A stretch of 64,000 nucleotides of DNA, taken from positions 310,001-374,000 of the forward strand of contig JAIUOE010000002.1 in assembly GCA_020161395.1 (NCBI GenBank), given 5' to 3'. Of this stretch, positions 41,801 to 57,520 are shown one piece after another. Source of the stretch: Bacteroidota bacterium. GTDB taxonomy: Bacteria; Bacteroidota; Ignavibacteria; Ignavibacteriales; Ignavibacteriaceae. The notes below the pieces were generated by a model. It made no database searches. It saw nothing but the letters and a program-made list of their open reading frames with translations, and had not been told where the DNA came from. Every line of letters begins with the position of its first letter. Within the stretch, counting starts at the first letter, position 1. The position numbers and the translations under genes were made by a program.

Positions 41801-41960
41801 GATTGTTTTGGTTGGTATCGGCAAAAGGAACCGAAGGAACTTCGGGTGAGAAAGGTCTTCTGCCCGGCATGATCTCTTCGTAATTGAGAGTGCCGTTAAG
41901 ATTAGTATAGTAGTGCCACTTTGGTTCTTCGTATGGAGAATTTAATATTGGATTTGACAA
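38880..41960 (-). CDS. res: type III-like restriction subunit (Res), DEAD/DEAH helicase-nuclease
   Basis: 1026 residues; likely start TTG at 41960. N-terminus [16 protein letters not shown] matches the family NCBI names BPTD_3080-like restriction endonucleases, as I recall. SF2 helicase motifs: Walker [12 protein letters not shown] (~162-172), DEAH in [22 protein letters not shown] and QVAGRALRR. The C-terminal nuclease region has P949-D950 and E968, but the residue where ExK is expected is Thr970 (EIT). Gene order is res then mod, the reverse of classical type III loci. Confidence 0.88.
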
Positions 41961-42104: not shown

Positions 42105-42166
42105 CATTACTGCATTACTGCATTACTGCATTACTGCATTATTGGATTATTGGATTATTGGATTAC
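42105..42166. repeat. 8-base tandem repeat array (seven units)
   Basis: CATTACTG x4, CATTATTG x1, GATTATTG x2, then a partial unit GATTAC. The stop codon of the TPR-CHAT gene lies inside the partial unit and res starts ~145 bases away, with the array on its upstream side. An 8-base unit is prone to slippage. The rest of the 41961-42104 gap is AT-rich and contains a plausible but unproven res promoter (TTGTTA...TAATTTG on the minus strand). Confidence 0.9.
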
Positions 42167-45100
42167 CTGTAGTCCCCCACCATTATGAAAGGAGCCCAGA
42201 AATATGGAAATGCATATTTGGGGTTCTTAATCAGTTTAAGTTTGGCTTTTTGAAGAGCTTCACTCTTTGACATCGTTTTCAGGTTGGTGTAAAACTCTGT
42301 CATAAGGATGGAGGTTGCCTCGTCTTCCACCTGCCAAAGGGAAGCTACGACTGTTTGCACACCGATTTTAAGGAAAGCGTTTGCTGGAGATACAAGCCAG
42401 CCCTTGGCAAATTCCTCACTGATTGCTGTTTTGCAGGCGGAGAGAGTTACGAGTTTATAATTTCTCAGGTTCGTCAATCCCCACACCTCGTTAATTGTCA
42501 GTTGCCCGTCGGAGAGTGGATCCTGTCCGGCACCTTTTTTTGCCATGGTCAGAAACGACTTGGTTATTTCACCATAGTTCATGTTTCCATGGGTTGCTAG
42601 GTGGAGAGTGTTGAACTGTCCTTTGGCGAGAGAGCGGATTTTCTCCTCGGTGGCATCATCTTTTGAATAGATTTCTGCATCGGTAAACAGTTTTTTCAAT
42701 CCGTTTACTTCATTCTCTGAAGAAGGAAGTGATTTATCTGCATTGGCGAATGCGATCAGTTTGAACGGAACGGCTTCTTTTGCCATGTTTTGGGAGAATA
42801 CTTTGAAGGAGGTTACATAGAACAACAGGTGATCCTCCAGCAAGAACTTAACTTTTTCACCCGGTTGCGAGGAGATCAAAGTTTCAAACGGAAGATAATA
42901 GAGCTTTCCAAAAGGGACAACGCAAAGCTTTTTCTTCCCCTTGAATATCGATTTTACGGGCTGAACCAGCATCTGATAAAGCTCCATCGCAAGCTTTCTC
43001 TGCGGTGCAAGATACATTTCATCTTCCATCGTCATGCTTTTATTTTTAGGTGAGTAGGTGTCAGGATCAACCTCACCAATCTCTTTTGCAGGATAGGAAT
43101 CCTTCAGCATCGAGTAAAATTCAACGAGTTTCTGCTCGAGTTCATCTTTTTTGATGTTCATCACGACAGCACCGACTGTGTCGGAAGTGGCACCAAAAAT
43201 GTAGAGGTTGTTGTCGCCCATCAGGTAGGCAAGCACCGCAACATCATCGGGGATGAACTCCTGCCACTCAAGGAAACTTACAGGGTTAATGTTGTCTTTG
43301 AAATAATCGTCGAGACCCGGATTTTTTTGCACTGTCTGCATTATAAATTCAACATAACTGTTTTCAGCTACCTCGAGACTTGCCTCAAGACTCGCAATTT
43401 TCTCGTTGTTTCTTAGTTCTGCAGGTTTCGACTTCTCCTTTTGAAGCTCCTCTTCCAGACCCGATTTTTTATTTTTCAGTTCCTTCTCTTTTTCTATCGC
43501 CTCGTTTTGGTTTTTGTCATCAAATTTTGGAGTTACATTTCCAAACTGCTCTTTCAGCCCTTCATTATAACTCATATCGAGATAATAGAGAGCACTGTCC
43601 AACTGCCCTTTTTGGATGAAGGCGTTTATCAGCGCCTCATAAATTTTTACCTTCAAATCACCCGATGAGAAAAGCTTGGCAGCCTTGTCGCCTCCCACAA
43701 GTTTCCCCCGGATGTCAGAAAGTACATTCACTGCTTTTCTAAGGAAGGAAATTGAGGAATCCTGATTTTTTTCCTGCTGAAAATTCAGGGCTTTATAATA
43801 GTAGGAGTGATAGACCAGCTTGTTTGTCCCCAGCTCCTGCGAGAGTTTAATTGAATTATCAAGAAATTTATTGGAGGACTTGAAATCATTTTTGATGTAG
43901 TTGAGTCTGCCGAGCACAAGCGAACTGTACATCAGGTCGTTTCTGTCCTTCAGTTCGGTACTTAGATCATATGCAAGTTTCGCATACTTTTCTGCAAGAT
44001 CGGTCTTTTTGGTATCGATATAGAGTGATGCAAGGAGTCCGTAAGGAGTGGTCAGATATGTTTTTGCACCTGTTTTCTTGGCATGTTCGATCGACTTTAT
44101 CAGGAATTTCTCTGCCTCATCATATTTCTTTTGTTCATACAACACCTCACCGATGTTTGAAAGAACCGTCGCCCGGAAATCACCGAAATATTTCAATGAA
44201 TCGAGTATCGAAAGTGACTTTTGGAAATATGGAAGTGCTGCTGCGTAGTCACCCTGCCAGAAATAGACGGTTCCCATGTTATTCAGAGGTGTCGCTCTGT
44301 AATAGTCGTTTTCGAGCGATTTGTATATGCTGTCAGATTTTGAATAGTTATCGATCGAAAGCTGATATTCACCAAGAGAGTTGTAAATATTCCCGTATGA
44401 AATGAAAATGCTTGCAAGAGCCCACGGATTGTCGATCTTGTCGTAATAGCTGTAGGCGGTATCGAAAATCGCCTGAGCCTTCTTGTACTCACCCAAAACA
44501 CGGTTCAGATCACCTTTATAGAGGTAGACATCACCAAGAAGGTTGTTGTTGTTCATTTCCTTCGCCACAGCCTCTGCCTTAAGGAAGTAACCGAGTGCCT
44601 TGTCAAACTCTCCTCCGGCAATTGATGCGGAACCGAGATTTATCAGGACATTCCCGATCTCTGCCTTTTCCTGCATCGATTCATAAATCGCAAGTGCTGA
44701 ATCGAGATATTTACCCGAAATGGCGGATCCGCCGGTTTCAGAGTAGAGTAGACCTATCTGCTTGAAGCAGTAAGCAATCGGGGAATTGTTGCTGATTTCC
44801 TTCGCCATTTTCAGGGCACTGTTGAATATCACAAGAGCGGTATCAAAATTATTCCGGTAACCATACTGCAACTGACCAAGGTTTATCATACAGTAGATGG
44901 CATCGAGTTTGTCATTCACAAGAAGGTTGAGTTCCAGACTCTTTTTAAGAGCTGTGGTTGCATTAGCCACATCGTTGAATGTCATGTAGGCAAGCCCCTG
45001 TTCAAACCAGTTTTCCGCTATTGCATACTTGTCTTTCGATTTTTCCTTTATGGCGAGACTCTTGTTGAAGAAGTCGAATGTTTTCTCGAAATCTTTCAAA

Positions 45101-47781
45101 TATTTGTACATGGCACCGATGTTATCATACACCTCTGCCATCCCTTTTTCATCGTTTTGTGATTTGTAAAGTTCGACAGCCTTGTCAAAATATTCCATCG
45201 CTTTGCCGGGATCACCCTGTTTGCTGTAGAGTGACCCGATTTTTGAATAAGAGAAAGCCTGATCTGCCAGGTTTCCTGTCTTTATCCGGTGTTCAATCGC
45301 TTTGTTGTGGGCTTTTATTGCATCATCGAACTTGCCGAGATTCCAAAGTGCCTGCCCGATGTTCGACTGACACAGACCCGCATTGTCAAGATCTTCAAGT
45401 TCAAGATAAAGATTGTAACTTTTTGTATAGTTCTCGATTGCAATCTGGTATTCTCCGAGTTCGAAATAGGTATATCCCATGTCGAAAAGATTCTGTGCCT
45501 GTTTCTTTTTGTTACCCGTAATCAGGCTGAGTTCGTGGACTCTTTTGTAGATATCGAGCGATTTCTGATAGTTACCCATCTTCGAGTAGACATCGGCAAT
45601 ATTTCTTAATACTGTGAGCTTGTCGTCGGAAACAGATGTCCCCTTGCTCGAGTCGTAGGACGCAAGTGCAAGTTCATAAAACTCGACAGACTCCTTATAC
45701 TTGTCCATGCCTGCGAGCGAGTATGCCTTTCCCCAGTAGGTGCCCCCGAGTCTCTCCCACAGCCAGTCGGAGGGTTCGGTGGCAACCATTTTTTTCCTGA
45801 TTGCAAGACAACTGTCATAATATGCTATCGATTTTTCATATTGCTCAAGATCGGAATATAATATTCCCAGATTATGCTGATTCATAGCTATATACGATGT
45901 GTCTTTTACTAATCGTGCATACTCAAGACTTCTCTTGTAGGCGTATTCCGTTCCTGCCATGTCACCTTTTGCCTTGAGGTAAAGACCTCTTGCAAGGTAA
46001 ACTCTCTTGATTTTATCGTTGTTTTTCAACCAGTCTGCAAATAAAGTTGCAGCCAGGGAGTATTTCTCTGCTTCATCCATCAGTCCCTTGGGGTAAAGGT
46101 CTTCTGTGGAATCTGCAAACTTTCCGGGAATGTCATAATCTGCGATTGAAATGCTGTCGACCTCAAATATTTTTCGCAGATCCTTTTCACCGCTGGCTTT
46201 CAGGATCAGATTAGCGAGTTTGGTCTGGCCCGCTATGGCATCAGAGGAAATCCATGAAAAGTAGGACTCGATAAATTTGAAGGAGAGCCCGAGATATTTG
46301 GCGGGGAAATCTTTTATAAAATAGAGGAAGTGTTTTACGGTCTCCACATCGGATTTTCTGATCGCCTTGTCTACCGTAAGTCCTTTGAACTCACCTGTTT
46401 CTGCCGGTTTTTGATAAGCCGGGTCTTCTTTCACGAGATCATCAATGATACTGTAAATCGGAGGATAATCAGCGAGAAATATTTCAAGAATTTTTGCATC
46501 AAGTAATGGATCTGCGAGATAATTCAGTACACCGTAACTGTATAAAATATTTTGGGAATTGTCCCTGAATACGATTTCTGACTTCGCAACATCGAGAAGC
46601 GGTGTGGAGTAACCTGTTTTTCTGGCAACCGGAATGTAAGCGTGATCTACAATAAAAAGTTTTTTGTTCTTGTTTACACCGTCGAATAACTTAATCCCGA
46701 TTTTGCTTTTGTAATCACCAACATCGAGTACCCTTCCTTTTCCCAGACTGAAAACATCGTGGTCGGGAAGTTCAGGATATACACACGCCCACACATTTAC
46801 TTCAGATCCGGGTACCATGTTATCATATCTCCCGCCGAAAACTGTGGCAATCAGGGAGTCGGCAGTAATGTAATTTATGTCGGAGATGAAAAACACCCTG
46901 TTCTCGGTCTCTGTGGATGAAACCTTCCAAAGGTCCTTGTATTTCGGATCCTTCAAATGCCTGGCAAGCATGTCAAGATTGACCATCATCGTCATGGCAT
47001 TCACAAGGGTGGAATCGATATTCGATTCCTTTGCCAGCTTGACACTTTCCAGATAGCTCTCTTTTGCTTTTAAAAAATCACCTGTGTAAGAATACATGTC
47101 ACCGAGAGTCTTGTAAGACTCAGCAATTTGAGCTTTGTTCTTTTCAGTCTTTATTTCCTGCTCCAATGCCTGTATTTTTGCGGTTGCGCTTGCAAGCAGA
47201 GATTTGGAATCAGGAAGTTTTAATTCATATTTTTCTAGGAGTGTGGCATCTTTCTCCTTGCCGAAATAATTTATTGCGTCAATTATCAGGTCCTCTGTTT
47301 TGAAACCGGCGATATATTGTTCATAATAGTAGATGAGATTGTCGTAATATGTATCAACATATTTGTTGAGTTTTAATTCCTTCGATTTTTGGAGAGAAAG
47401 CTGAAAGTAGTCGAGAGCGAGCTCGTGTCTTTTCATGTTATTGTATGCCACGCCAATATTGTTAATGGCGATTACATAATTTTCATAATCCTTTTCCTGA
47501 TAAAAACCCTGAAGTGTGGAGTGCCACAAATTTATGGCAACATTGTATTTTGTGGAGTCGAAAGCTGTAAGAGCCCGGTTGAATATTTTTAGAAGTGAAT
47601 CGGAACTTTCCTTTTGAGATTCTGCCGTCAGCAGCCCTTTTGCAGAATGTTCTTCCTCCGCTACAGACACTTTTTTGGTCTCCTTGCCGCTGACGGGCGA
47701 AGAGCTCAGTTTGTAGCCTGAGACCACAATTATGGTTGCAATAAAGAATAAAAGTGTAACTTGTAAAACTCGCTTTTTCAT
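42163..47781 (-). CDS. giant secreted TPR-CHAT caspase-like protein
   Basis: 1872 residues. A signal peptide or anchor (RVLQVTLLFFIATIIVVSGY) is followed by TPR repeats at ~75-270, a non-TPR insert (~280-430, unrecognised), then some 20 more TPRs to ~1400. A charged coiled coil (~1455-1520) leads to a CHAT domain with catalytic His1731 in LATHG and Cys1783 in LSACKTA, both intact. CHAT domains are caspase/separase-fold proteases; TPRs bind partners. Predicted to act in the periplasm or at the inner membrane. It ends 12 bases downstream of a second CHAT gene and is divergent from a FecR/CHASE2-cyclase operon. Substrate unknown. Confidence 0.87.
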   Translation of the reverse strand: MKKRVLQVTLLFFIATIIVVSGYKLSSSPVSGKETKKVSVAEEEHSAKGLLTAESQKESSDSLLKIFNRALTAFDSTKYNVAINLWHSTLQGFYQEKDYENYVIAINNIGVAYNNMKRHELALDYFQLSLQKSKELKLNKYVDTYYDNLIYYYEQYIAGFKTEDLIIDAINYFGKEKDATLLEKYELKLPDSKSLLASATAKIQALEQEIKTEKNKAQIAESYKTLGDMYSYTGDFLKAKESYLESVKLAKESNIDSTLVNAMTMMVNLDMLARHLKDPKYKDLWKVSSTETENRVFFISDINYITADSLIATVFGGRYDNMVPGSEVNVWACVYPELPDHDVFSLGKGRVLDVGDYKSKIGIKLFDGVNKNKKLFIVDHAYIPVARKTGYSTPLLDVAKSEIVFRDNSQNILYSYGVLNYLADPLLDAKILEIFLADYPPIYSIIDDLVKEDPAYQKPAETGEFKGLTVDKAIRKSDVETVKHFLYFIKDFPAKYLGLSFKFIESYFSWISSDAIAGQTKLANLILKASGEKDLRKIFEVDSISIADYDIPGKFADSTEDLYPKGLMDEAEKYSLAATLFADWLKNNDKIKRVYLARGLYLKAKGDMAGTEYAYKRSLEYARLVKDTSYIAMNQHNLGILYSDLEQYEKSIAYYDSCLAIRKKMVATEPSDWLWERLGGTYWGKAYSLAGMDKYKESVEFYELALASYDSSKGTSVSDDKLTVLRNIADVYSKMGNYQKSLDIYKRVHELSLITGNKKKQAQNLFDMGYTYFELGEYQIAIENYTKSYNLYLELEDLDNAGLCQSNIGQALWNLGKFDDAIKAHNKAIEHRIKTGNLADQAFSYSKIGSLYSKQGDPGKAMEYFDKAVELYKSQNDEKGMAEVYDNIGAMYKYLKDFEKTFDFFNKSLAIKEKSKDKYAIAENWFEQGLAYMTFNDVANATTALKKSLELNLLVNDKLDAIYCMINLGQLQYGYRNNFDTALVIFNSALKMAKEISNNSPIAYCFKQIGLLYSETGGSAISGKYLDSALAIYESMQEKAEIGNVLINLGSASIAGGEFDKALGYFLKAEAVAKEMNNNNLLGDVYLYKGDLNRVLGEYKKAQAIFDTAYSYYDKIDNPWALASIFISYGNIYNSLGEYQLSIDNYSKSDSIYKSLENDYYRATPLNNMGTVYFWQGDYAAALPYFQKSLSILDSLKYFGDFRATVLSNIGEVLYEQKKYDEAEKFLIKSIEHAKKTGAKTYLTTPYGLLASLYIDTKKTDLAEKYAKLAYDLSTELKDRNDLMYSSLVLGRLNYIKNDFKSSNKFLDNSIKLSQELGTNKLVYHSYYYKALNFQQEKNQDSSISFLRKAVNVLSDIRGKLVGGDKAAKLFSSGDLKVKIYEALINAFIQKGQLDSALYYLDMSYNEGLKEQFGNVTPKFDDKNQNEAIEKEKELKNKKSGLEEELQKEKSKPAELRNNEKIASLEASLEVAENSYVEFIMQTVQKNPGLDDYFKDNINPVSFLEWQEFIPDDVAVLAYLMGDNNLYIFGATSDTVGAVVMNIKKDELEQKLVEFYSMLKDSYPAKEIGEVDPDTYSPKNKSMTMEDEMYLAPQRKLAMELYQMLVQPVKSIFKGKKKLCVVPFGKLYYLPFETLISSQPGEKVKFLLEDHLLFYVTSFKVFSQNMAKEAVPFKLIAFANADKSLPSSENEVNGLKKLFTDAEIYSKDDATEEKIRSLAKGQFNTLHLATHGNMNYGEITKSFLTMAKKGAGQDPLSDGQLTINEVWGLTNLRNYKLVTLSACKTAISEEFAKGWLVSPANAFLKIGVQTVVASLWQVEDEATSILMTEFYTNLKTMSKSEALQKAKLKLIKNPKYAFPYFWAPFIMVGDYR

Positions 47782-47793
47782 CTCAGTTCCTCG

Positions 47794-50244
47794 TTATTTG
47801 CCGGGTGATCCAATTAAGATAAATGGTGCCCAGTAAAATGGGTGACTCCAGTCTTTGTTCGTTTTATTGTTTAAAACGGCTATTTGAGCATCTCTCATCG
47901 AGAAGAGAAGTGGCTTTTTTTCGTCTTTGTACTTCTCGTAAAAATGTTCCATCATAAATCCGGTTGATCTGTCGTCCACAGTCCAAAGCGTACCCATTAC
48001 ATTGGCAGCTCCGGCATAGAGCAGCGCCCGGGTGAGCCCGGTAAGATCATCAGTTGTCAGATATTTGTGACCGCCGAAAGCTCCAACTCTTCCGGAAAGA
48101 CATGCACTTAATACTACGAGATTCGCATTAAGTTTCAATTTAAATATTTCCGAGGCTCTCAGGTATCCGTCGTCACTTGCGTTTTTGGTTAGCATGAGAT
48201 GACTCTTGAGTGCATCCTCCTCATAAATCCCGTGCGTGGCAAAGTGGAGTATGTCATATTTCCCCGCCTCTTTCTTTATCACCGATTCGGTTGCTGCTTC
48301 ATTTATCAGCAGGAGGGTTTTATTTTTGTCGAAATGCCGCGAAATTTCATTTGCTTCTTTCTCCGCGAAGGGAAGGGGTGAGAATTTCGTGTTTGGATAG
48401 ATGGGATTACCCACAATCAAAATCTTTCCTTCGTCGGTCTTTCCTGCCTTCAGAAGGAACGGAAGTGAAGAAGCGGAGGGTAAAGTCAGTATCTCTTTTT
48501 CTTCAATCCAGTATGTCGGTCTCGCTACATGATGTTTCTTTGTGAGGTCAAGATTTTTGAACGATGAGATCAACGCAGCAAATGGCATCTCGTGCAGGAA
48601 ACCATGAGGAATTATTATTACTCTGTTATAATTAACGAGGTCTTTGTCCTGCTGATCACCGATTATGGTCTTGTAGAGCTGAAACAGAGCGAGTTGAAGA
48701 ACCCTGTCCGCATCTGAAGCATACCACATCTCAGCGAGCTTGAGACTGTCGAGCGAGTCATCGTTTCTGTTCAGAATCTTTTGAAGTTCGGTGAATTCCC
48801 CCCTCTTGTTCGGGAAAAGATTTATGTCAGTAATAATTTTCGTGACGAGTGAATCGATTTCCCTTGGACTTTGTTTGGATCTGGAAACCGTGATCGAATT
48901 CCGGGTTACAAGAAATGTGTAAAATGCGTTCCTTCCAATAAAGAATTCGACAACGGCACTTTTTTCATCGATCAGCTTTTGGAAGTCCTTCAGTTTAACC
49001 GTTTCTTCGCTTACAAGGAGATTCAAATCCGGCTGCAATTCCTCCTTCTTCGAATAGATTTTTGAGTATTCATCGAGAAGGGAGGTAAATTTGCCGATTT
49101 TGTCCTCTTCAAAATATAACCACAACGAATCCCTGAAAACTGTTTCGATCTCGCTTTTCCTCGACAGCACTTCCTTTAATTCAGCGGGGAGGTTCTCCTC
49201 CACTCCGGATGCTTTGGTGGACAACATGTCAATGAAGGATCTGGATTTCACCTTCTCCGCAAGATTGAACATAGCTTCAAAATCTTTGTTCTCATAGAGT
49301 TCGTTGATCAGGAGGACATAATAATAAGTAAGATTGTCAAGAAATACTGCCCGCCCCCGTTCGTCATCCAGTTTGGAGCGGTACTCCTCTATAACTGCGA
49401 GATTCTCATTTAATAAATTAATTCCATTATTGCGAAATATTTCACCGTTCTCTTTTCTGTCCGACATCTCAAGATAAAGGTAACCGAGTCTCAGAGATGC
49501 TATCGCCTTCCAGTAATTATTACCGCTTTTTTTATATCCCTCGATACTCATCTCGATATTTTTTGCGGCACTGTCAAGCTGTCCGGTACTTTGAAATGAA
49601 ATGCCAAGATTAAACAAAATATTTGTCTTCAGGTTTTCATCCAGTGTGGAAACGGAGAGGTTTCTTGCTTTTATCAGGGTGGTTAAAGCGTCATTCAGCA
49701 CCTGATTGTAATCGCTGTTGTCAGGATCGGCAGATGCATCAAGTCTGTAAAGTATTCCGAGATTCAGAAGCACAGAGAGTCTGCCGTCATTATTCCCCTT
49801 TTTCTCATAAAAATCGAGCACTTCCATAAAAAGATTTTCGGCTTCGGTAATCTTTCCGGCATACGCTGATCTTCTGTCGGTCTCCATCAGGGTGATAGCA
49901 AGATTGTTTTTTATATTGTAGAGTTCAGTCTCAATTTCGCCCGATAACGGCTGGTTAAAAGCTTTATTCAAAAGGTTTACAGCCAGTCTGTAAAAACTTG
50001 CAGCAGCCTCCAGCTCCCTGTAATTGTAATAAAGTGTTCCGAGTAACTTTACCGACCGTATTTTGTTGTAGTTGTCTTTTTCCTTCTCCGAAACCTTGAA
50101 AGCCTCAAAAATAACCTTCTCGGCATCCTTGCACGACGATTTTTCGAGGAGTGCATAACCCTTGTCAACAAGTTTCCCCGCCTCTCCCGTCTGTGCTTCG
50201 AGCAAGGGAATAAAAACCAGAATAAAAAAGAAAATTTTTTTCAT
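47794..50244 (-). CDS. secreted TPR-CHAT caspase-like protein
   Basis: 816 residues with a clear signal peptide (IFFFILVFIPLLEAQ). About seven TPR-like repeats (residues 25-330) and a linker lead into a CHAT domain (~540-816) with His671 in FATHG and Cys715 in LSACLSG. It ends with the CHAT-typical HPFYWAPFILIG. The two CHAT proteins form one operon, this one first. Shared domain order but low overall similarity suggests old duplication or two functional partners. Expected to be a cysteine peptidase outside the cytoplasm. Confidence 0.88.
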   Translation of the reverse strand: MKKIFFFILVFIPLLEAQTGEAGKLVDKGYALLEKSSCKDAEKVIFEAFKVSEKEKDNYNKIRSVKLLGTLYYNYRELEAAASFYRLAVNLLNKAFNQPLSGEIETELYNIKNNLAITLMETDRRSAYAGKITEAENLFMEVLDFYEKKGNNDGRLSVLLNLGILYRLDASADPDNSDYNQVLNDALTTLIKARNLSVSTLDENLKTNILFNLGISFQSTGQLDSAAKNIEMSIEGYKKSGNNYWKAIASLRLGYLYLEMSDRKENGEIFRNNGINLLNENLAVIEEYRSKLDDERGRAVFLDNLTYYYVLLINELYENKDFEAMFNLAEKVKSRSFIDMLSTKASGVEENLPAELKEVLSRKSEIETVFRDSLWLYFEEDKIGKFTSLLDEYSKIYSKKEELQPDLNLLVSEETVKLKDFQKLIDEKSAVVEFFIGRNAFYTFLVTRNSITVSRSKQSPREIDSLVTKIITDINLFPNKRGEFTELQKILNRNDDSLDSLKLAEMWYASDADRVLQLALFQLYKTIIGDQQDKDLVNYNRVIIIPHGFLHEMPFAALISSFKNLDLTKKHHVARPTYWIEEKEILTLPSASSLPFLLKAGKTDEGKILIVGNPIYPNTKFSPLPFAEKEANEISRHFDKNKTLLLINEAATESVIKKEAGKYDILHFATHGIYEEDALKSHLMLTKNASDDGYLRASEIFKLKLNANLVVLSACLSGRVGAFGGHKYLTTDDLTGLTRALLYAGAANVMGTLWTVDDRSTGFMMEHFYEKYKDEKKPLLFSMRDAQIAVLNNKTNKDWSHPFYWAPFILIGSPGK

Positions 50245-50422
50245 GTTGGAAAAGTTTCAGATTTTTTACTAAATTGAGTAATACAAGATTTGATTTTACC
50301 TTAATTTGTGATCCAAAGCAATTAAACGGTTTTGAAGTGCCTAAATCACAGATCAAGGAAAGATTAAAGACTATTTTAACAACAGAGATTCTAATTATTT
50401 CCTTTTGATCGTAGATGGAGTA

Positions 50423-50461
50423 ATTTAGAATTCAATTTAATAAAGTTTATTTAGAATTCAA
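50423..50461. repeat. two direct repeats in divergent promoter region
   Basis: ATTTAGAATTCAA occurs at 50423-50435 and again at 50449-50461, exactly 26 bases apart, between the CHAT operon and the FecR/cyclase operon and about 62-100 bases before the ATG at 50523. Candidate regulator-binding sites. The rest of 50245-50522 is AT-rich; a GGAGG ribosome-binding site is at 50514-50518. Confidence 0.5.
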
Positions 50462-50522
50462 ACTCTATTACATTTCTACGAGCAAAAAGTTTCCCTTAAG
50501 TTTATTTATCAACGGAGGACCC

Positions 50523-51584
50523 ATGAGAAATCGAGTGGCTATATTCATCTTTTCTGTAATTATGACTCTGTCCGCGGCAGCGCAGGCACCAAGAGTCGAT
50601 ATACAGATACTCAATCCGCTGCCAACAGTAGATCTTACACAATTCATTAATGCAAAAGATCTGTGCGGAGCACCGGAAGTGTTTCAGGTTAGGCTTGATC
50701 CTAAAGGTCAGCAGGGCTTCATAAAAGCTTTCTTCTCCTGGAAAAAAATTGATCAGACAAGTTACGATGAAGTCTATAGAATGACCAGCGATAATTTCAC
50801 GATCAGGGATTTCTACAGCAACGAATTGTGTAATTCGGAGATTACCGTCAAGGAAGAAAATTCCAACAAAACCCTCATCGACGAGGCTCTTAAAAAAGGT
50901 GTGCCGGTAGGAAGCTACAGAATTACCATCGAACTTTATAATGCACAAGGTGTTCTACTTGCTTCAGATACAGAAACCAGGGATTTCACAAACCCTGCAG
51001 CAACCCTCGCTCTTATCTCTCCGGTACAGTTGATGTCTTACAGCGAAAACAGTGTGCCTGCATCATGGAACCCGGTAATCGGTGCACAGTCTTACAGAAT
51101 TAAAGCCGTCAGACTGACATCCATTCCACCTTCGCTCGAATCAGCAATTGAAGACGGTACTCCATGTATCAATAATGTTGATGTCGGACCTGTCACTCAA
51201 CTGAATGACCTTTCAGTACTCCAGTCGGCAAACCCCTGGAGACCGGGTGACTTCGTTGTTGTAAGAGTAACGGCAATCATTCCCGGAGCAGGTACAAATC
51301 AGGAATTGAACAGTAACATAATCCTTTTCCAGATCAGGAATGTTAATAATCCCCAGTCATCAGTTGTTTCACAGTTGATAATGAATCTTCTGTCATTCCT
51401 GCCACCAAACCTGGTTACTCCCGAGTTGCAGCAGTTCCTTACACAGTATGGAGCCTCAATCACCGGTTATCAGGGCGATGGTGGACAAAACCTGAATTTG
51501 AACGAATTCCTTAATCTCTTAAACATGATAATTGCGAACCCGGATATGCTGATCAATATCCGTCTCGAAGGTTCCGGGAGTTAA
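50523..51584 (+). CDS. secreted protein of unknown function, first gene of FecR/cyclase operon
   Basis: 353 residues after a GGAGG site four bases before the ATG. Signal peptide ends LSAAAQA. Two beta-rich parts are visible: residues ~25-155 (unknown fold with two cysteines) and ~165-270, which resembles a fibronectin-III-like module (PVQLMSYSENSVPASWNPV). The C-terminal 80 residues are rich in Asn, Gln and Leu. I do not recognise a family. Two bases separate it from the FecR-domain gene, so they are probably co-expressed and may interact in the periplasm. Confidence 0.8.
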   Translation: MRNRVAIFIFSVIMTLSAAAQAPRVDIQILNPLPTVDLTQFINAKDLCGAPEVFQVRLDPKGQQGFIKAFFSWKKIDQTSYDEVYRMTSDNFTIRDFYSNELCNSEITVKEENSNKTLIDEALKKGVPVGSYRITIELYNAQGVLLASDTETRDFTNPAATLALISPVQLMSYSENSVPASWNPVIGAQSYRIKAVRLTSIPPSLESAIEDGTPCINNVDVGPVTQLNDLSVLQSANPWRPGDFVVVRVTAIIPGAGTNQELNSNIILFQIRNVNNPQSSVVSQLIMNLLSFLPPNLVTPELQQFLTQYGASITGYQGDGGQNLNLNEFLNLLNMIIANPDMLINIRLEGSGS

Positions 51585-51586
51585 AT

Positions 51587-52264
51587 ATGAAAAAATATCT
51601 GCTAAATTTATCCATACTCGTGGTTGCTGTTTTCTTCTTCTCGGGAGCAACCGAAGAGGTTAATGCACCTGCTGCTGTTGTTACGAAGGTTGTTAACGCC
51701 GCCGAATACAAGACTTCTTCAGGGAAGTGGACCGATTTGAAAGTTGGACAGGCTCTCAACTCTGAAGATATGATCAAGACTTCAGGGAAATCTCTCGTCG
51801 TTGTCAAGTTTACCGATAACTCGGTGCTTAAGGTAAGAGAGAATTCACAGGTTAAAATATCAACCCTCAAGAAAGACAAAAATGTCTCCAAAACAGTAGA
51901 TGTTGATAAAGGAGCCGTAAATGCCTCTGTAACCAAACAGGATCAGCAGGATTTCAAATTCAAATCACCGACTCTCGTGGCTTCGGTCCGCGGTACATGG
52001 CTCCTCTTTGGAGTGGGTAGCGACACTACAAATGTCGATTTGAAAGAAGGACAACTCTTCTGCGAAGCCCAGCTTGGACGACAGGAATCGGGAGATTTGA
52101 AAGAGAACCAGACTGTTACAGTAACCCCGGAAGGGTCATTTAAACCGAGAGAAATGACGGACTCCGAGAAAAAACGATTCGAGAATTCGAACAGGTCAAA
52201 TGTCAAAAAAGTGGTGATAAAAACACCACAAGGTGACATCGTAATCGAATATCTGGAAAACTAA
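51587..52264 (+). CDS. FecR-domain secreted protein
   Basis: 225 residues with a signal peptide (LSILVVAVFFFSGATEEVNA). The FecR domain spans ~40-150: LKVGQALNSEDMIKTSGKSLVVVKF, NSVLKVRENSQVKI, then the signature KSPTLVASVRGT. Such stand-alone periplasmic FecR domains, unlike the anti-sigma FecR, often sit beside CHASE2 cyclases and outer-membrane barrel proteins. Its role is probably structural or sensory. A strong terminator follows 20 bases later, so downstream genes may need read-through or their own promoter. Confidence 0.87.
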   Translation: MKKYLLNLSILVVAVFFFSGATEEVNAPAAVVTKVVNAAEYKTSSGKWTDLKVGQALNSEDMIKTSGKSLVVVKFTDNSVLKVRENSQVKISTLKKDKNVSKTVDVDKGAVNASVTKQDQQDFKFKSPTLVASVRGTWLLFGVGSDTTNVDLKEGQLFCEAQLGRQESGDLKENQTVTVTPEGSFKPREMTDSEKKRFENSNRSNVKKVVIKTPQGDIVIEYLEN

Positions 52265-52283
52265 AGAATATATTTTCAGTATT

Positions 52284-52340
52284 AAGCCGCTTTTCATATT
52301 AGAACCATGTAAAAGCGGCTTTTATTTTTTGTTTTTTTTT
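52284..52340 (+). terminator. terminator between FecR gene and the barrel gene
   Basis: AAGCCGCTTTT (52284-52294) pairs with AAAAGCGGCTT (52311-52321) over 11 bases, followed by a long T-rich run to about 52340. The remaining gap to 52418 holds a GGAGG site before the next ATG. Confidence 0.9.
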
Positions 52341-52418
52341 AGCTATTTTGTAAATTCCATGAACCGTTAAAGAAATTACCCAACTCCCGTTTCATCAATA
52401 TCCCGGAGGTTTAATAGA

Positions 52419-54851
52419 ATGTTAAATTACTTTTTCAAAATCAGTTTCTTTTTGCTCCTGCCTGTAGTTATCTTTGCACAGGCAAGCAATTTTGTGACCA
52501 GTGTGTCACTTACGGATGCCAGAGAGGGCTCTGATCTCACCATAAGAGCGGACCTGACCAATATCAGCGAAATTTCTGATATCACGATAGCTTATCGTGT
52601 ATTTGGCACAACAGAATTCATTAAAAAAGAGATGGACCTTTCGGGTGGTAGTGCAAGCATAAATCTGGGTGCTGACGAAATAAGACTGCCGTCTCTCGAA
52701 TATTATTTTATAATCAAAATAAGAAGCGGTGGTGAAGAAACCTATCCTGTCGATGCTGTCATGCAGTCATATCTGAATGTACAGGTTCAACCAAAGTCAG
52801 CGAAAGACAGTGAAGTTTTACTCCTTAACCCAGAACCCGGCACACCAATGACGACCGATGAGGCTCTGGTAACCATTTCGCTGTTGAAAGCCAGCGATGA
52901 GGTTGACAAAGGTAAAACCCGTTTTTTCGTTAATGGAGTCGATCTCTCAGATCAGCTTTTTATCGCCGAAGATCTTATTATTCTTGCCGGTGACAAGCTC
53001 GTTTCAAATCTTAAAACCGGAAGTTTGAACTCTTTCAGAGTGGAACTCTACAAAAAAGACGGTTCAGCCTACCATGCCTACTCTGCCGGTTTTGAAGTAA
53101 AGGAAAAAGCCGGTAACAGAATTCAGGGCACACCTTTTGAATATTTCCTGAATGTAAGAGGTGAGTCCCGAAACGAAAATGTAAGAGAAGTGAACAACTG
53201 GTACAATAACATCTCCATCGATGGTAAAGCCACCTATGGTGCATTTGATGCCGATCTGCAGGTTTACGCCACTTCTGAAGAAAAAGATTACTTTCAGCCG
53301 TACAACAGGTATAAACTCGGAATTTACAACGAGTATTTCAGAGTAATCGGTGGAGATTATACACCCGGATATCAGTCACTGATCATGAACGGTAAAAGAG
53401 TCAGAGGTATAACCGGAAGCGTGCATGCAGGTTTCTTTAATGTTCAGGCTTCCTATGGCGAGATAAACCGTGGAATAGACGGAGGGATTGTCGAAATTTT
53501 ACCTCCAAACACATCTCTTCTGGGCTCTGATATCCAGCGACTCCCTGACGGAAGAATCGCAAGGGTTAATCAGGGAACATTCAAAAGGGATGTTCTTGCT
53601 GTAAATCCTTACTTTACTGCAGGAGAAACCTTTAAACTTGGTTTTACCTATCTTCATTCCAAGGATGATATTGCTACTGCAAAGTATACAAAACAACCTC
53701 AGGAAAATGTGGTTGCAGGCGCTGACTTTGCTTTGAACCTTGACGACAACAGAATTCAACTCTATGCTCAGGGAGCCTTCTCCGTCGTCAACAAGGATAT
53801 CACCACGGGAAACATTGCCGACACGACTATTGACAAGGTTTTTGGTCCCGGCGGTGCATTCAGTGGTAATGCCGGTCAGATAAAGGATATTAAAGACATC
53901 ATCAGCCGGTTCATCACTTTCAACCAGTTCCTTTCACCATTGAAACCGGATGAACTTTCTTCCCTTGCTTATGAAGTAAGCCTTTCACTCAATTATTTCA
54001 ACAATTTTTTCAAAGGTTCATACATAAGCAGAGGATTCGACTACATCTCCTTCGGTAATAATTATCTTAGAACCGATGTCTCCGGATTTAATCTTTTCGA
54101 CCGTGTCTCTCTGCTCGACAACAAGATGTTCCTCTCCCTCGGATACGAGAGACTCGAAGACAACAGAAACAAGACCAAATTTGCGACAACCAAATTCACC
54201 AATTTTAATGCATCAGTATCATATTACCCCGCTTTCAATCTGCCCGGAATCATACTTTCCTACTCCAGAAATGAAAACAACAATGGAATCCTAAGTACCG
54301 ACCCGGATCTTCAAAGAAGAACTTACGGTATTGATGACTATACAAACAGATTCGGATTGCAGGTAACTTACAGATTCTTCGCCGGGTACAACCACAATCT
54401 CTCTGCAAATGCCTCAATTTCGAGCAGAAAAGACAACACTATTTTCCAGTTTGATGCGAACAATACAATGCTTGGTCTTAACTACTCGACCGAGTGGAGT
54501 AAATATTTACAGTCGTTCCTGAATCTCAATATGAGTAATAACGAGATTGTTCAAGGACCGGGAAGACCGACAGTCAACTTTAACATCACTTCACTTGTTG
54601 CCGGAGCAAAATATTATCTCATGCAGAATAAGCTCGTTCTAAACGGTTCAGTCTCCCCCACTTTCGGAGATGCAAAAAGAACAGCAATCGATGTGAGCGC
54701 TCTTTATTATGTGCTTCAGAATTTCTCTCTGCAGTTACAGGTAAGATACATACTGAACAGTGGTGATATAATTGACCCTGTAAGAAATGTCACAATTCCG
54801 ATAGCAAATGATTCTATCATTGGATTAACAACAAGATATGAATTGAGGTAA
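52419..54851 (+). CDS. outer-membrane beta-barrel protein of unknown function
   Basis: 810 residues after a GGAGG site. Signal peptide ends VVIFAQ. The N-terminal ~230 residues look like Ig-type modules (SVSLTDAREGSDLTI; LLNPEPGTPMTT). From ~245 on, alternating strands with aromatic girdles (YFRVIGGDYTPGYQ, FKGSYISRGFDYISFGN, LSLGYERLED) indicate a large barrel; the chain ends ...GLTTRYELR. It may be a channel or receptor for the neighbouring FecR and cyclase proteins. No TonB plug or T9SS tail is seen. Confidence 0.78.
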   Translation: MLNYFFKISFFLLLPVVIFAQASNFVTSVSLTDAREGSDLTIRADLTNISEISDITIAYRVFGTTEFIKKEMDLSGGSASINLGADEIRLPSLEYYFIIKIRSGGEETYPVDAVMQSYLNVQVQPKSAKDSEVLLLNPEPGTPMTTDEALVTISLLKASDEVDKGKTRFFVNGVDLSDQLFIAEDLIILAGDKLVSNLKTGSLNSFRVELYKKDGSAYHAYSAGFEVKEKAGNRIQGTPFEYFLNVRGESRNENVREVNNWYNNISIDGKATYGAFDADLQVYATSEEKDYFQPYNRYKLGIYNEYFRVIGGDYTPGYQSLIMNGKRVRGITGSVHAGFFNVQASYGEINRGIDGGIVEILPPNTSLLGSDIQRLPDGRIARVNQGTFKRDVLAVNPYFTAGETFKLGFTYLHSKDDIATAKYTKQPQENVVAGADFALNLDDNRIQLYAQGAFSVVNKDITTGNIADTTIDKVFGPGGAFSGNAGQIKDIKDIISRFITFNQFLSPLKPDELSSLAYEVSLSLNYFNNFFKGSYISRGFDYISFGNNYLRTDVSGFNLFDRVSLLDNKMFLSLGYERLEDNRNKTKFATTKFTNFNASVSYYPAFNLPGIILSYSRNENNNGILSTDPDLQRRTYGIDDYTNRFGLQVTYRFFAGYNHNLSANASISSRKDNTIFQFDANNTMLGLNYSTEWSKYLQSFLNLNMSNNEIVQGPGRPTVNFNITSLVAGAKYYLMQNKLVLNGSVSPTFGDAKRTAIDVSALYYVLQNFSLQLQVRYILNSGDIIDPVRNVTIPIANDSIIGLTTRYELR

Positions 54852-54852
54852 G

Positions 54853-57075
54853 ATGCAACCCAGGAAAAACAAGTCAGGTTTCGTAACAAAACTTGCCACA
54901 GCAGCAGTTGTTGCACTTCTGACAATTCTTCTCACGGGTGACTTTTTTATCTCAATAAAGCCCATCAAAGAGCTTGAACTTAAGCAAATTGATGAGAAAT
55001 TTACAAAAAGAGGTGCTGTCCCGTTCAAGGACAGCACCTCTAATGTTATTATACTCGAGATAACCCGGAATACTTTTAAGGGCATGCCCGAAAAGTATAA
55101 AAAATGGCCCTACCCCCGTGAATTTTTCGCCCGTGTAATTAATAACCTGAATAATGCCGGTGTAAAAGCGATCGGCGTCGACCTTCTTATGGAAAGTTCC
55201 AGCATCTTCTCCCATGAAGATGACTCCACATTGATAAATGCCATTCTCGCCAAACACAATGTGGTGGTCGCCGGCAAGACTTTCGACGAGAACAAAAACA
55301 CCGGAGGCAATGTACAGGTTGAGGTCGAAAACCTGAAGGAAGACTACGGAAGTTTCCTTTTCCCCGTCGACAGTTCGATCGGAATCGTGCAGGTGATAGC
55401 AGATAACGATGGTGTTCACCGCCGTTACTACCCCTTTGCCTATTCCCAGACCTCCAAAAAAAGTGTCCCCACTTTCTCATTTGCAGTGTTAAACAAGTGG
55501 TTCGGTCTCTCTCCGCTTACCATTTCCGAACTTTCAGGTGACCACTTTAAATTGGGGAAAAATCTGATTCCAAAATACGACGATGTTTCAATGCTGGTAA
55601 ACCTATACGGTTCATCCCGCACATTCAAGCATGTTGATTTTATAGATGTACTTGATGATTCAGTCTTCAACACCGCTGAGGAACTTGAATACGGTACTTC
55701 GTTGAATATTTGGGATGACCCTGCTTCGGGATTGCTCCATTCGGGGATGTTCAAGGATAAGATAGTGCTGATCGGCTCCACACTCGAGGAGGATCGTGAT
55801 GTTATTCCCGTTGCATTGTCCACTGATGAGAAAGGCGGAAGCAATACTATCTACGGTGTCGAGTTCCACGCCAATGTCATCCAAAACATTATCGATGGAA
55901 ACTACATCAACAAGTTTCCCTATTGGGCTGAAGTTCTCCTGATAATTGCTTTTGTAATGATCAGTTTTTTCCTGACTTCATCTCTGAGAGATCTGAAACT
56001 TCGAATGAGCTGGATCGTCGAGATCGGAAGCGTCTTGCTTGTCTTTCTTCTGGTTTTTGGAATCAGGGAGCTCTCTAACTTTCTTTTCATCAATCAGAAA
56101 CTCCTCCTCTCGTATGTTGGAATTGACCTCGGAATCATCCTCGGTTATTTTTCGAGTACAGCCTACTACTTCATCCTCGAAAGAAGACAGAAAACACAGA
56201 TCAAAGGAATGTTTTCACAATATGTCGATAAATCGATGGTTGATGAATTGATTGCCAATCCCGATAAACTTCGACTTGGCGGTGAGAAAAAATTTGTCAC
56301 GGTCTTCTTTTCTGACATCGCAGGATTCTCAACTTTCTCCGAGAACAAGGAACCGGAAGAGCTGGTGGCATTCCTGAACCAGTATCTCAGTGCGATGACT
56401 GAAACTGTTATTGCAAACAAAGGGACTCTCGACAAGTATATCGGCGATGCCGTGATGGCTTTTTGGGGAGCTCCGATTCCGATTGAGAACCACGCCCAAC
56501 TCGCCTGCAAAACGGCTCTTACCCAGCAGGAAATCATCAAAAAGATGCAGAAAAAGTGGAAAGAGGAAGGTCAGCCGATTATTGATGTGAGAATCGGTAT
56601 AAACACAGGTGACATGGTTGTTGGAAATGTCGGTGGCACACAAAGATTCGATTACACCGTAATGGGTGACAATGTGAACCTCGCTTCCAGGCTCGAAGGA
56701 GCAAACAAAGCCTATGGCACCCACATCATGATCAGCGAGTCAACCTTTGAACTCGTCAACAAGGAGTTCATGACGCGTGAACTCGACCGGCTCGTGGTAA
56801 AAGGCAAAACCCTGCCAGTTAAAGTCTATGAACTTGTTGCCGAAGCCGGTGCTGAAATTGATGAGGAGACAAAAAAGGCGATGCAACACTACTGTGATGC
56901 CATGTCGAAATATCGTATTCGTGACTTCGAAGGCGCACTCGAACTTTTCAACAAGGCTCTCGAAACCAAACCTGATGACGGACCTTCAAAGGTTTACATC
57001 GAAAGGTCGAAACACTATATTGAATCACCTCCTGATGAGAACTGGGATGGCGTCTTTAAACTCACTACAAAATAA
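54853..57075 (+). CDS. CHASE2-domain adenylate cyclase with TPR-like tail
   Basis: 740 residues. One N-terminal helix, an extracytoplasmic CHASE2 sensor (~40-340), three membrane helices (~355-455), and a class III cyclase domain (~475-655). Metal-binding Asp488 (FSDIAGFS) and Asp532 (IGDAVMAFWGAP) are intact; DYTVMGDNVNLASR contains the Asp of adenine-specific enzymes, so cAMP is the likely product. A short TPR-like C-terminal part follows. It should convert an envelope signal to a cytoplasmic second messenger. It starts one base after the barrel gene stop. Confidence 0.92.
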   Translation: MQPRKNKSGFVTKLATAAVVALLTILLTGDFFISIKPIKELELKQIDEKFTKRGAVPFKDSTSNVIILEITRNTFKGMPEKYKKWPYPREFFARVINNLNNAGVKAIGVDLLMESSSIFSHEDDSTLINAILAKHNVVVAGKTFDENKNTGGNVQVEVENLKEDYGSFLFPVDSSIGIVQVIADNDGVHRRYYPFAYSQTSKKSVPTFSFAVLNKWFGLSPLTISELSGDHFKLGKNLIPKYDDVSMLVNLYGSSRTFKHVDFIDVLDDSVFNTAEELEYGTSLNIWDDPASGLLHSGMFKDKIVLIGSTLEEDRDVIPVALSTDEKGGSNTIYGVEFHANVIQNIIDGNYINKFPYWAEVLLIIAFVMISFFLTSSLRDLKLRMSWIVEIGSVLLVFLLVFGIRELSNFLFINQKLLLSYVGIDLGIILGYFSSTAYYFILERRQKTQIKGMFSQYVDKSMVDELIANPDKLRLGGEKKFVTVFFSDIAGFSTFSENKEPEELVAFLNQYLSAMTETVIANKGTLDKYIGDAVMAFWGAPIPIENHAQLACKTALTQQEIIKKMQKKWKEEGQPIIDVRIGINTGDMVVGNVGGTQRFDYTVMGDNVNLASRLEGANKAYGTHIMISESTFELVNKEFMTRELDRLVVKGKTLPVKVYELVAEAGAEIDEETKKAMQHYCDAMSKYRIRDFEGALELFNKALETKPDDGPSKVYIERSKHYIESPPDENWDGVFKLTTK

Positions 57076-57520
57076 TTTGTTAAGAGGCGGGGTTATTCTC
57101 GCCTCTTCCCTTATTATCACTGCCTGTGCCTCCACGGTACGAATACCCGACAACAGGAACAAACCCGACATCGAGGTAAACAATCCTGAAAGCAATCCCG
57201 CCTCCTTCGATTTGAAGGTCGTTTCAACATTTACAGGGAAAGCAACTTATTATGCCGATAAATTTCAGAACCAAAAGACTGCAAGTGGTGAGATTTACAA
57301 AAAAAGCAAGTTTACCGCTGCACACAAAGATCTTCCCTTCAATACCCTTGTGAAGGTTACAAATCTGAAAAACGGGAAAAGTGTCGTCGTAAAAATAAAC
57401 GACAGAGGACCCTTCGGAAGGGACAGGGAAATCGACCTTTCATACATAGCTGCAAAATCGATTGACATGCTCGCCGATGGTGTGGTGGATGTGAAAGTGG
57501 ATATCCTCGGAAACAACTGA
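57047..57520 (+). CDS. RlpA-family septal ring lipoprotein (DPBB domain)
   Basis: 157 residues from the ATG at 57047, which lies inside the cyclase gene in another frame (29-base overlap); a TTG at 57079 is a possible alternative. The signal peptide ends with lipobox SLIITAC. The double-psi beta-barrel domain has GKATYYADKF, TASGE, AAHKDLPFNTLVKVTN, and INDRGPFGRDREIDLS with the catalytic Asp-like position. RlpA proteins are peptidoglycan lytic transglycosylases or septal proteins. The SPOR domain of classical RlpA is missing. Confidence 0.87.
   Translation: MASLNSLQNNLLRGGVILASSLIITACASTVRIPDNRNKPDIEVNNPESNPASFDLKVVSTFTGKATYYADKFQNQKTASGEIYKKSKFTAAHKDLPFNTLVKVTNLKNGKSVVVKINDRGPFGRDREIDLSYIAAKSIDMLADGVVDVKVDILGNN

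Follow-up and report, generated by a model that had tools for sequence, protein, structure and literature searches.

In Sinorhizobium meliloti, the NsrA-CyaK system is reported to sense the plant protein uL2 and to raise cyclic AMP (cAMP), NsrA being reported as a β-barrel (PMC13001267; this and the other articles cited were available to us in part). In 2016 the input of CHASE2 domains was still described as unknown (PMC5192318), and this is one route reported since then. Also in print are a CHASE2-cyclase/FecR/TPR/phosphodiesterase cluster of Campylobacterota (PMC9239204), the BiofilmReg operon of Burkholderiales with a CHASE2 kinase and FecR (PMC5192318), the gene mtxA of magnetotactic bacteria, which encodes a secreted protein with an Ig-like C-terminal domain and is followed by a CHASE2 cyclase gene (PMC4439547), and a metacaspase-CHASE2 fusion of Trichodesmium, a parallel to the pairing of protease and CHASE2 (PMC3501461). 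Here we analyse a stretch of 64,000 nucleotides (the window, G000:C2:310001-374000, from a genome of 4.07 Mb) of an Ignavibacteriaceae bacterium, in which a plus-strand operon encoding an FN3-like protein (SEC353), a FecR-domain protein, a predicted outer-membrane barrel and a CHASE2 adenylate cyclase adjoins two divergent TPR-CHAT genes (CHATL and CHATS). We consider it reasonably probable that this operon encodes an NsrA-CyaK-like pathway for cAMP signalling across the envelope, its parts divided among separate genes and the CHATs being later partners. The locus is composed as follows.

42163..47781, minus strand: CHATL, a TPR protein of 1872 residues with a C-terminal CHAT domain (His1731/Cys1783), probably exported or membrane-anchored
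47794..50244, minus strand: CHATS, a TPR-CHAT protein of 816 residues (His671/Cys715), probably exported, 12 nt upstream of CHATL
50245..50522, no strand: divergent gap of 278 bp between both operons, best CRP-consensus match 7/10 (chance level)
50523..51584, plus strand: SEC353, predicted secreted protein with two FN3/Ig-like domains and C-terminal helices, first gene of the conserved core
51587..52264, plus strand: FecR-domain protein of 225 residues, predicted secreted, without the anti-sigma part, beginning 2 nt after SEC353
52419..54851, plus strand: outer-membrane barrel of 810 residues by predicted fold, with a β-rich (Ig-like) N-terminal part and then a large barrel, 154 nt after the FecR gene, best PDB match MtrB
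54853..57075, plus strand: CHASE2 adenylate cyclase of 740 residues, with an N-terminal transmembrane segment, CHASE2, further transmembrane segments and a class III cyclase, 1 nt after the barrel gene
57047..57520, plus strand: RlpA-like DPBB lipoprotein of 157 residues, a narrow accessory overlapping the end of the cyclase gene

All seven genes that an earlier note on this DNA had described are present and correctly placed, and their domains score above the Pfam cut-offs [bits against cut-off: CHAT domains 194.6 and 203.3 against 24, FecR 47.2 against 24, CHASE2 149.1 against 26.3, Guanylate_cyc 105.6 against 21.9, DPBB 84.0 against 28.8]. The sole error of a start concerns RlpA, which the note rightly took for a DPBB lipoprotein but whose listed frame is over-extended to 56828; the start is most likely 57047, giving 157 residues, because a lipobox-like LIITAC lies there and the listed frame of 230 residues runs far into the cyclase gene. 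A simple hydropathy scan finds one N-terminal hydrophobic stretch in all six non-cyclase proteins, by which these are probably exported; the export signals ascribed to both CHATs are thus there as hydrophobic stretches, export itself being a prediction.

In S. meliloti nsrA lies directly upstream of cyaK with a one-base overlap, and NsrA carries a FecR domain and TPRs (Pfam). An alignment of CyaK to the window cyclase spans 666 columns at 28% (E 8e-70), and the FecR profile aligns to NsrA (hhalign 95.5%). As in NsrA-CyaK (CyaD1, CyaD2, Clr), a FecR domain, an outer-membrane barrel (reported there, predicted here) and a CHASE2 cyclase are co-encoded, CHASE2 is joined to a class III adenylate cyclase, and the FecR protein is encoded near the cyclase, although in the window the barrel gene lies between them. 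In another strain a Crp/Fnr gene, cyaD1 and a FecR gene stand side by side. A CRP-family regulator acts downstream of cAMP in the described system (PMC13001267, PMC5498481), and the genome of the window likewise encodes a CRP homologue. NsrA unites FecR, TPR and barrel in one polypeptide, whereas the window has FecR and barrel as separate genes; it also adds a probably secreted FN3-like protein, and in some genera CHATs flank the operon.

The Campylobacterota cluster resembles the window in having a CHASE2 cyclase with a FecR envelope protein and a TPR protein, but there is no phosphodiesterase among the ten window proteins scanned, the window adds the barrel and the FN3-like protein, and its TPR part is joined to CHAT. 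BiofilmReg shares a periplasmic FecR-domain protein adjoining a CHASE2 sensor; there, however, the CHASE2 domain belongs to a histidine kinase accompanied by a response regulator, the FecR protein carries LysM, and neither barrel nor CHAT is among the four components described in the part of the article available (PMC5192318). Sphingobium plasmids (L148, L150) encode a CHAT protein, a CHASE2 cyclase, a protein of 238-239 residues, ShlB and a large protein, with Crp/Fnr upstream in one. Here too a TPR-CHAT protein is followed by a CHASE2 cyclase and accompanied by an outer-membrane partner, but the partner is a two-partner secretion channel, CHAT and cyclase lie on one strand, and FecR has no match among the four proteins scanned. 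The earlier note knew of no described system with the set found in the window. The exact combination of CHAT, FecR, barrel and CHASE2 was indeed not found in print in the open-licence literature, where 'CHAT domain' also returned no papers when paired with CHASE2, FecR, CHASE2 plus FecR, or tetratricopeptide plus Ignavibacteri; related CHASE2/FecR and barrel/CHASE2 systems are nevertheless published (PMC9239204, PMC5192318, PMC13001267), and Sphingobium has CHAT-CHASE2.

The conserved unit is four genes (SEC, FecR, barrel and cyclase), which is not the set that the earlier note had proposed. Gene order was read in 40 regions from 39 other genomes of the order with strong barrel matches and in 20 regions outside the order, taken from the stronger phylum-level barrel matches. 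Adjacency in relatives had been set as the test beforehand and is borne out for this unit: SEC-FecR-barrel-cyclase are consecutive on one strand in 36 of the 40 order-level regions; three of the exceptions (L048, L063, L065) are cut by contig ends and the fourth (L041) ends in a second SEC gene. The cyclase is the gene next to the barrel in 39/40. Among the 20 regions from distant families, FecR-barrel-cyclase recur in 14: all four genes are recognised in ten (including L124, with a split barrel frame), and in four an unrecognised protein of ~400 residues takes the place of SEC (L137 is borderline). Within the order the core is by no means general, since the barrel search (79 genomes, E ≤ 0.001) matched 41 genomes, its own included and G038 weakly, and found no match in 38. 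At phylum level the barrel profile matches 56 of 148 genomes, several of them weakly. The cyclase tree (53 rows) groups largely by family and therefore fits vertical descent. With the single window cyclase as query, three loci were found among genome contigs (Ignavibacteriales, Ignavibacteriaceae and Chlorobiota metagenome-assembled genomes); FecR and barrel gave no match when searched against plasmids. RlpA adjoins the core in 4/61 regions (the window, L026, L027 and L029; by eye also L087) and is a narrow accessory, as restricted as the CHAT pair.

The cyclase has Asp488, Lys528, Asp532, Asp606, Asn609 and Arg613, which we take to be its catalytic residues. The FecR protein has a signal-like stretch at its start and no further hydrophobic stretch. 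Pfam returns nothing at E ≤ 0.05 for the barrel protein of the window, and the 39 members of its family yield only four unrelated single-member Pfam matches. Its predicted model [mean predicted local distance difference test (pLDDT) score 84.8] has 24 strands of at least nine residues and, beginning near residue 239, forms a large outer-membrane barrel; the best PDB match is MtrB [6r2q_B, Z-score: 21.4, root mean square deviation: 4.2, 453 residues aligned, residues 239-809], and the next PDB matches form a tied field at Z 17.6 and below. The model of SEC353 (pLDDT 78.6, predicted TM score 0.46, moderate confidence) has two FN3-like domains and helices, and its Foldseek/VIA pairings were all generic FN3 ones (best Z 8.9, tied). 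Neither SEC353 nor the barrel obtained a usable family name from Pfam or NCBIfam, nor any from PADLOC, so that the barrel and its FN3-like partner are without one. In L124, L130 and L131 the FecR protein bears extra domains that are matched by the N-terminal part of the barrel, which ties FecR and barrel together. The FecR profile compared with two other FecR-looking proteins was not convincing (L088 2.4%, L076 39.9%).

The size of the barrel model, its closeness to MtrB and the presence of usher and LptD chains among its Foldseek matches would also suit a machine that exports or assembles a surface polymer or protein, with the cyclase reporting its state or envelope stress. In class-level relatives the core is preceded by genes that point the same way: an RseP-like M50 site-2 protease and dxr lie directly before it in L118 (L118:12218-14707, Pfam), both are recognisable by their first residues in L122, L124, L130 and L131, and one of the two in L120 and L121, which suggests a tie to envelope quality control. 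The apparent duplication of the SEC-FecR-barrel trio in one genome (G014, L041) could be read likewise. However, the operon has no conserved partner for polymer synthesis or secretion, whereas the cyclase is the constant next gene, and we regard an export machine as unlikely. The likeness to MtrB itself is one of fold and size only, as an electron conduit is rejected by the lack of any CxxCH haem motif in the seven proteins. A FecIR sigma/anti-sigma pair was also rejected: the FecR protein lacks the cytoplasmic anti-sigma part and no sigma gene is among the ten proteins scanned.

Sites resembling the CRP consensus TGTGA-N6-TCACA were scored within 300 bp upstream of SEC in the 46 regions with a clear SEC and enough DNA, with 172 upstream regions in the same loci as controls. 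At least 8/10 bases are matched in 28/46 regions (shuffles 4.9) against 22/172 controls, at least 9/10 in 10/46 (shuffles 0.36) against 5/172, and perfect sites occur in 2/46 against 0/172. The Fisher P-values of 1e-4 (at least 9/10) and 2e-10 (at least 8/10) ignore relatedness, a weakness that tells against the signalling reading. Other spacers (2-11) give 0-3 regions at ≥ 9/10 and the other 29 orderings of the half-site 0-2, but among all 1024 half-sites nine of A/T only reach 10-17 and AGCAT reaches 11 (13 at ≥ 8), and TGTGA therefore stands out only against half-sites of the same composition. In genus g8 two almost identical shared gaps each have a CRP-like site of 9/10 (P 0.03 and 0.02 for single regions), and the whole window holds 39 CRP-like matches against 34 expected, which is chance level. 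The genome has six cNMP-binding matches, one of them a CRP/FNR-type regulator with SRETISR in its helix-turn-helix, presumably the same contact residues as in Escherichia coli CRP. The core is probably under cAMP control in many relatives.

Both CHAT dyads, His671/Cys715 and His1731/Cys1783, are invariant in 6/6 aligned orthologues each, and the earlier note had called them intact and numbered both cysteines (Cys715 and Cys1783) rightly. Its description of the two as twins does not hold: the two CHAT domains share 27% identity, and both find better-scoring matches in the CHATs of another CHASE2 operon, so that by sequence CHATL and CHATS are not recent twins. The middle region of CHATL is found in 8/164 genomes of the order, seven of which also have the core and a frame of ~1850-1890 residues; the eighth match (G026) is weak, its frame begins at a contig edge, and that genome has no barrel match. 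Six genomes from three genera (G000, G001, G003, G005, G010 and G035) have CHATL and CHATS next to the core in divergent orientation, with identities to the window's proteins across the three genera of 37-42% (CHATL) and 31-32% (CHATS). In G027 the contig with the core breaks off at SEC, and CHATL is on a different one. The CHAT-bearing genomes occupy two places within one family on the cyclase tree, and the pair was therefore gained twice or lost several times.

The CHATs may instead be independent exported proteases whose place beside the core is an inherited accident. Such a reading is encouraged by the low share of core regions that have the pair (6 of the 34, the window's among them, in which 3 kb or more precedes SEC), by three more CHAT genes elsewhere in the genome of the window, by the divergent orientation and by the lack of a shared CRP site in the window. 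It is opposed by the retention of the pair over three genera at the identities given, and by the finding that 16/77 CHAT matches have a CHASE2 match no more than 15 kb away where one or two are expected (a hand count, in which related genomes are non-independent), from which the CHAT-CHASE2 link looks more than chance. Further cases also speak against it, Sphingobium being one. A second, six-gene operon occurs at L069:6963-18546, L070:3540-15268 and L071:2124-13793; in L070 it encodes (Pfam) a secreted protein with weak DUF4384, a CHASE2 cyclase, proteins of 607 and 250 residues, an OmpA/SPOR/TPR protein and a TPR-CHAT protein, and L069 and L071, which likewise have CHASE2 and CHAT matches, show the same order with similar sizes (Pfam also covered the first L069 protein). 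In a third arrangement (L076, Pfam) a TPR-CHAT protein adjoins a CHASE2-only protein. For a Bernardetia CHASE2 protein no CHAT is annotated nearby. Independence of the CHATs is quite conceivable, though we incline against it.

A tree of 38 CHAT domains, including 13 of the 16 linked to CHASE2, places CHATL, CHATS and the second-operon CHATs in one group of 15 with moderate support (83/78). Twelve members are linked and three are labelled not linked, two of the latter being the contig-cut CHATL of G027 and L156, from a second-type gene set without a cyclase on its stretch (L073); among the remaining 23, L076 alone is linked. The CHASE2-linked label changes five times against a shuffled mean of 11, and 0/500 shuffles are as low. 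Fifteen rows lack the spelling ATHG and S[AG]C; the eight inspected have STHS or ATHS and SSC, with the dyad intact. The probably exported CHATs could be a dedicated branch that co-evolves with CHASE2 cyclases and forms a caspase-like proteolytic arm in the periplasm, which either controls a surface-to-cAMP sensor or is controlled by it, a proposal that we make tentatively and hold to be doubtful. No pathway of caspase-fold proteins that operates beyond the cytoplasm in a second-messenger circuit is known to us. Within the locus the CHATs are what is new and least understood, and we read them as lineage-specific partners of the core.

CHAT proteins are used in defence, type III restriction-modification genes (mod, res) lie directly downstream of CHATL on the same strand (36319-41960), and the cyclase domain matches PADLOC PycC models (best 123 bits); a Pycsar- or Craspase-like defence system is nonetheless highly improbable. 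The TPR and CHAT protease layout is that of Csx29 (type III-E CRISPR), but Csx29 has an RNA-guided, cytoplasmic partner, unlike the window CHATs, which are probably exported, and these score 56.0 and 33.3 bits with the Csx29 model against an NCBIfam cut-off of 300. Craspase/Csx29 was rejected on that ground. No Pycsar effector model is among the matches listed for eight window proteins (for one of them, 25 of 36 matches), the stretch from 57604 on lying outside the PADLOC scan, and Pycsar was rejected as far as tested. The cyclase tree, too, fits vertical inheritance.

The NsrA-like signalling reading thus has its basis in gene content and order, conservation, catalytic residues, the CRP-type sites of relatives and the CRP homologue, together with the predicted barrel fold and predicted export, whereas the direct contacts, the direction of signalling, cAMP as the product and the signal are what we infer. 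Several observations weigh against it. The barrel has no sequence similarity to NsrA (hhalign 0.1%), and for this reason and because of the separate genes the core is said here to work like NsrA, not to be an NsrA. The S. meliloti FecR protein SMc02177 is described as an output gene that is not needed for signal perception (PMC5498481). The divergent gaps of the window and of its nearest relative hold no CRP-type site above chance (best 7/10), and a solitary barrel occurs in 6/20 distant regions. The core is without adjacent CHATs in 28/34 regions, the CHATs therefore not being essential to signalling and falling outside the conserved unit in which they had been placed. Finally, the CHASE2-linked label on the CHAT tree changes five times, not once, and forms a single clade in 0% of 200 bootstrap trees. 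Of the one envelope system with a cAMP cyclase that the earlier note had proposed, the envelope sensor joined to the cyclase fits the gene content; the CHATs do not belong to the unit conserved with it.

We propose that the barrel would sit in the outer membrane, with the FN3-like protein and the FecR protein on its periplasmic face, and that through these three an event at the surface or in the envelope would alter the CHASE2 domain in the periplasm. The cytoplasmic cyclase would then make cAMP, to be read by the CRP homologue, which in many relatives may also control the operon. In three or four genera the two TPR-CHAT proteases would have been recruited to the divergent side and, at the weakest step of the scheme, might act in the periplasm on components or products of the pathway, either trimming or clearing sensor proteins or serving as an envelope effector. 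The core would largely belong to a known class, that of CHASE2-FecR-barrel cAMP sensors, of which distant families of the phylum have this split form. It offers a compact set of likely CHASE2 partners across those families, on which the question of what CHASE2 senses is directly testable, and its link to probably exported CHATs raises a possible role for envelope caspase-like proteins, of which none was found in the open-licence literature searched.

Some minor observations complete the picture. Divergent beside nsrA-cyaK lies a gene annotated as DUF5706 or 'Pycsar system effector family' (L145:1516-2061 in Sinorhizobium, L146:1549-2088 in the Rhizobium counterpart), a hint at a Pycsar-like membrane effector that may act downstream of the CHASE2 cyclase. 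In G014 the SEC-FecR-barrel trio looks tandem-duplicated at a contig end (L041:1-5584), and a barrel and cyclase lie on another contig (L048). The CHAT domains of L172 and L173, from two genera of family f2, have an identical protein sequence, reflecting recent transfer or contamination. In the stretches fetched around the solitary barrels (L123, L125, L129, L132, L133 and L135) no FecR or cyclase gene is recognised close to the barrel, and because it stands alone in these six phylum-level genomes an older, separate function is conceivable for it. Five of these barrels have near them a gene for a protein of 117-127 residues, the beginning of which we take to resemble a HIT-type protein.

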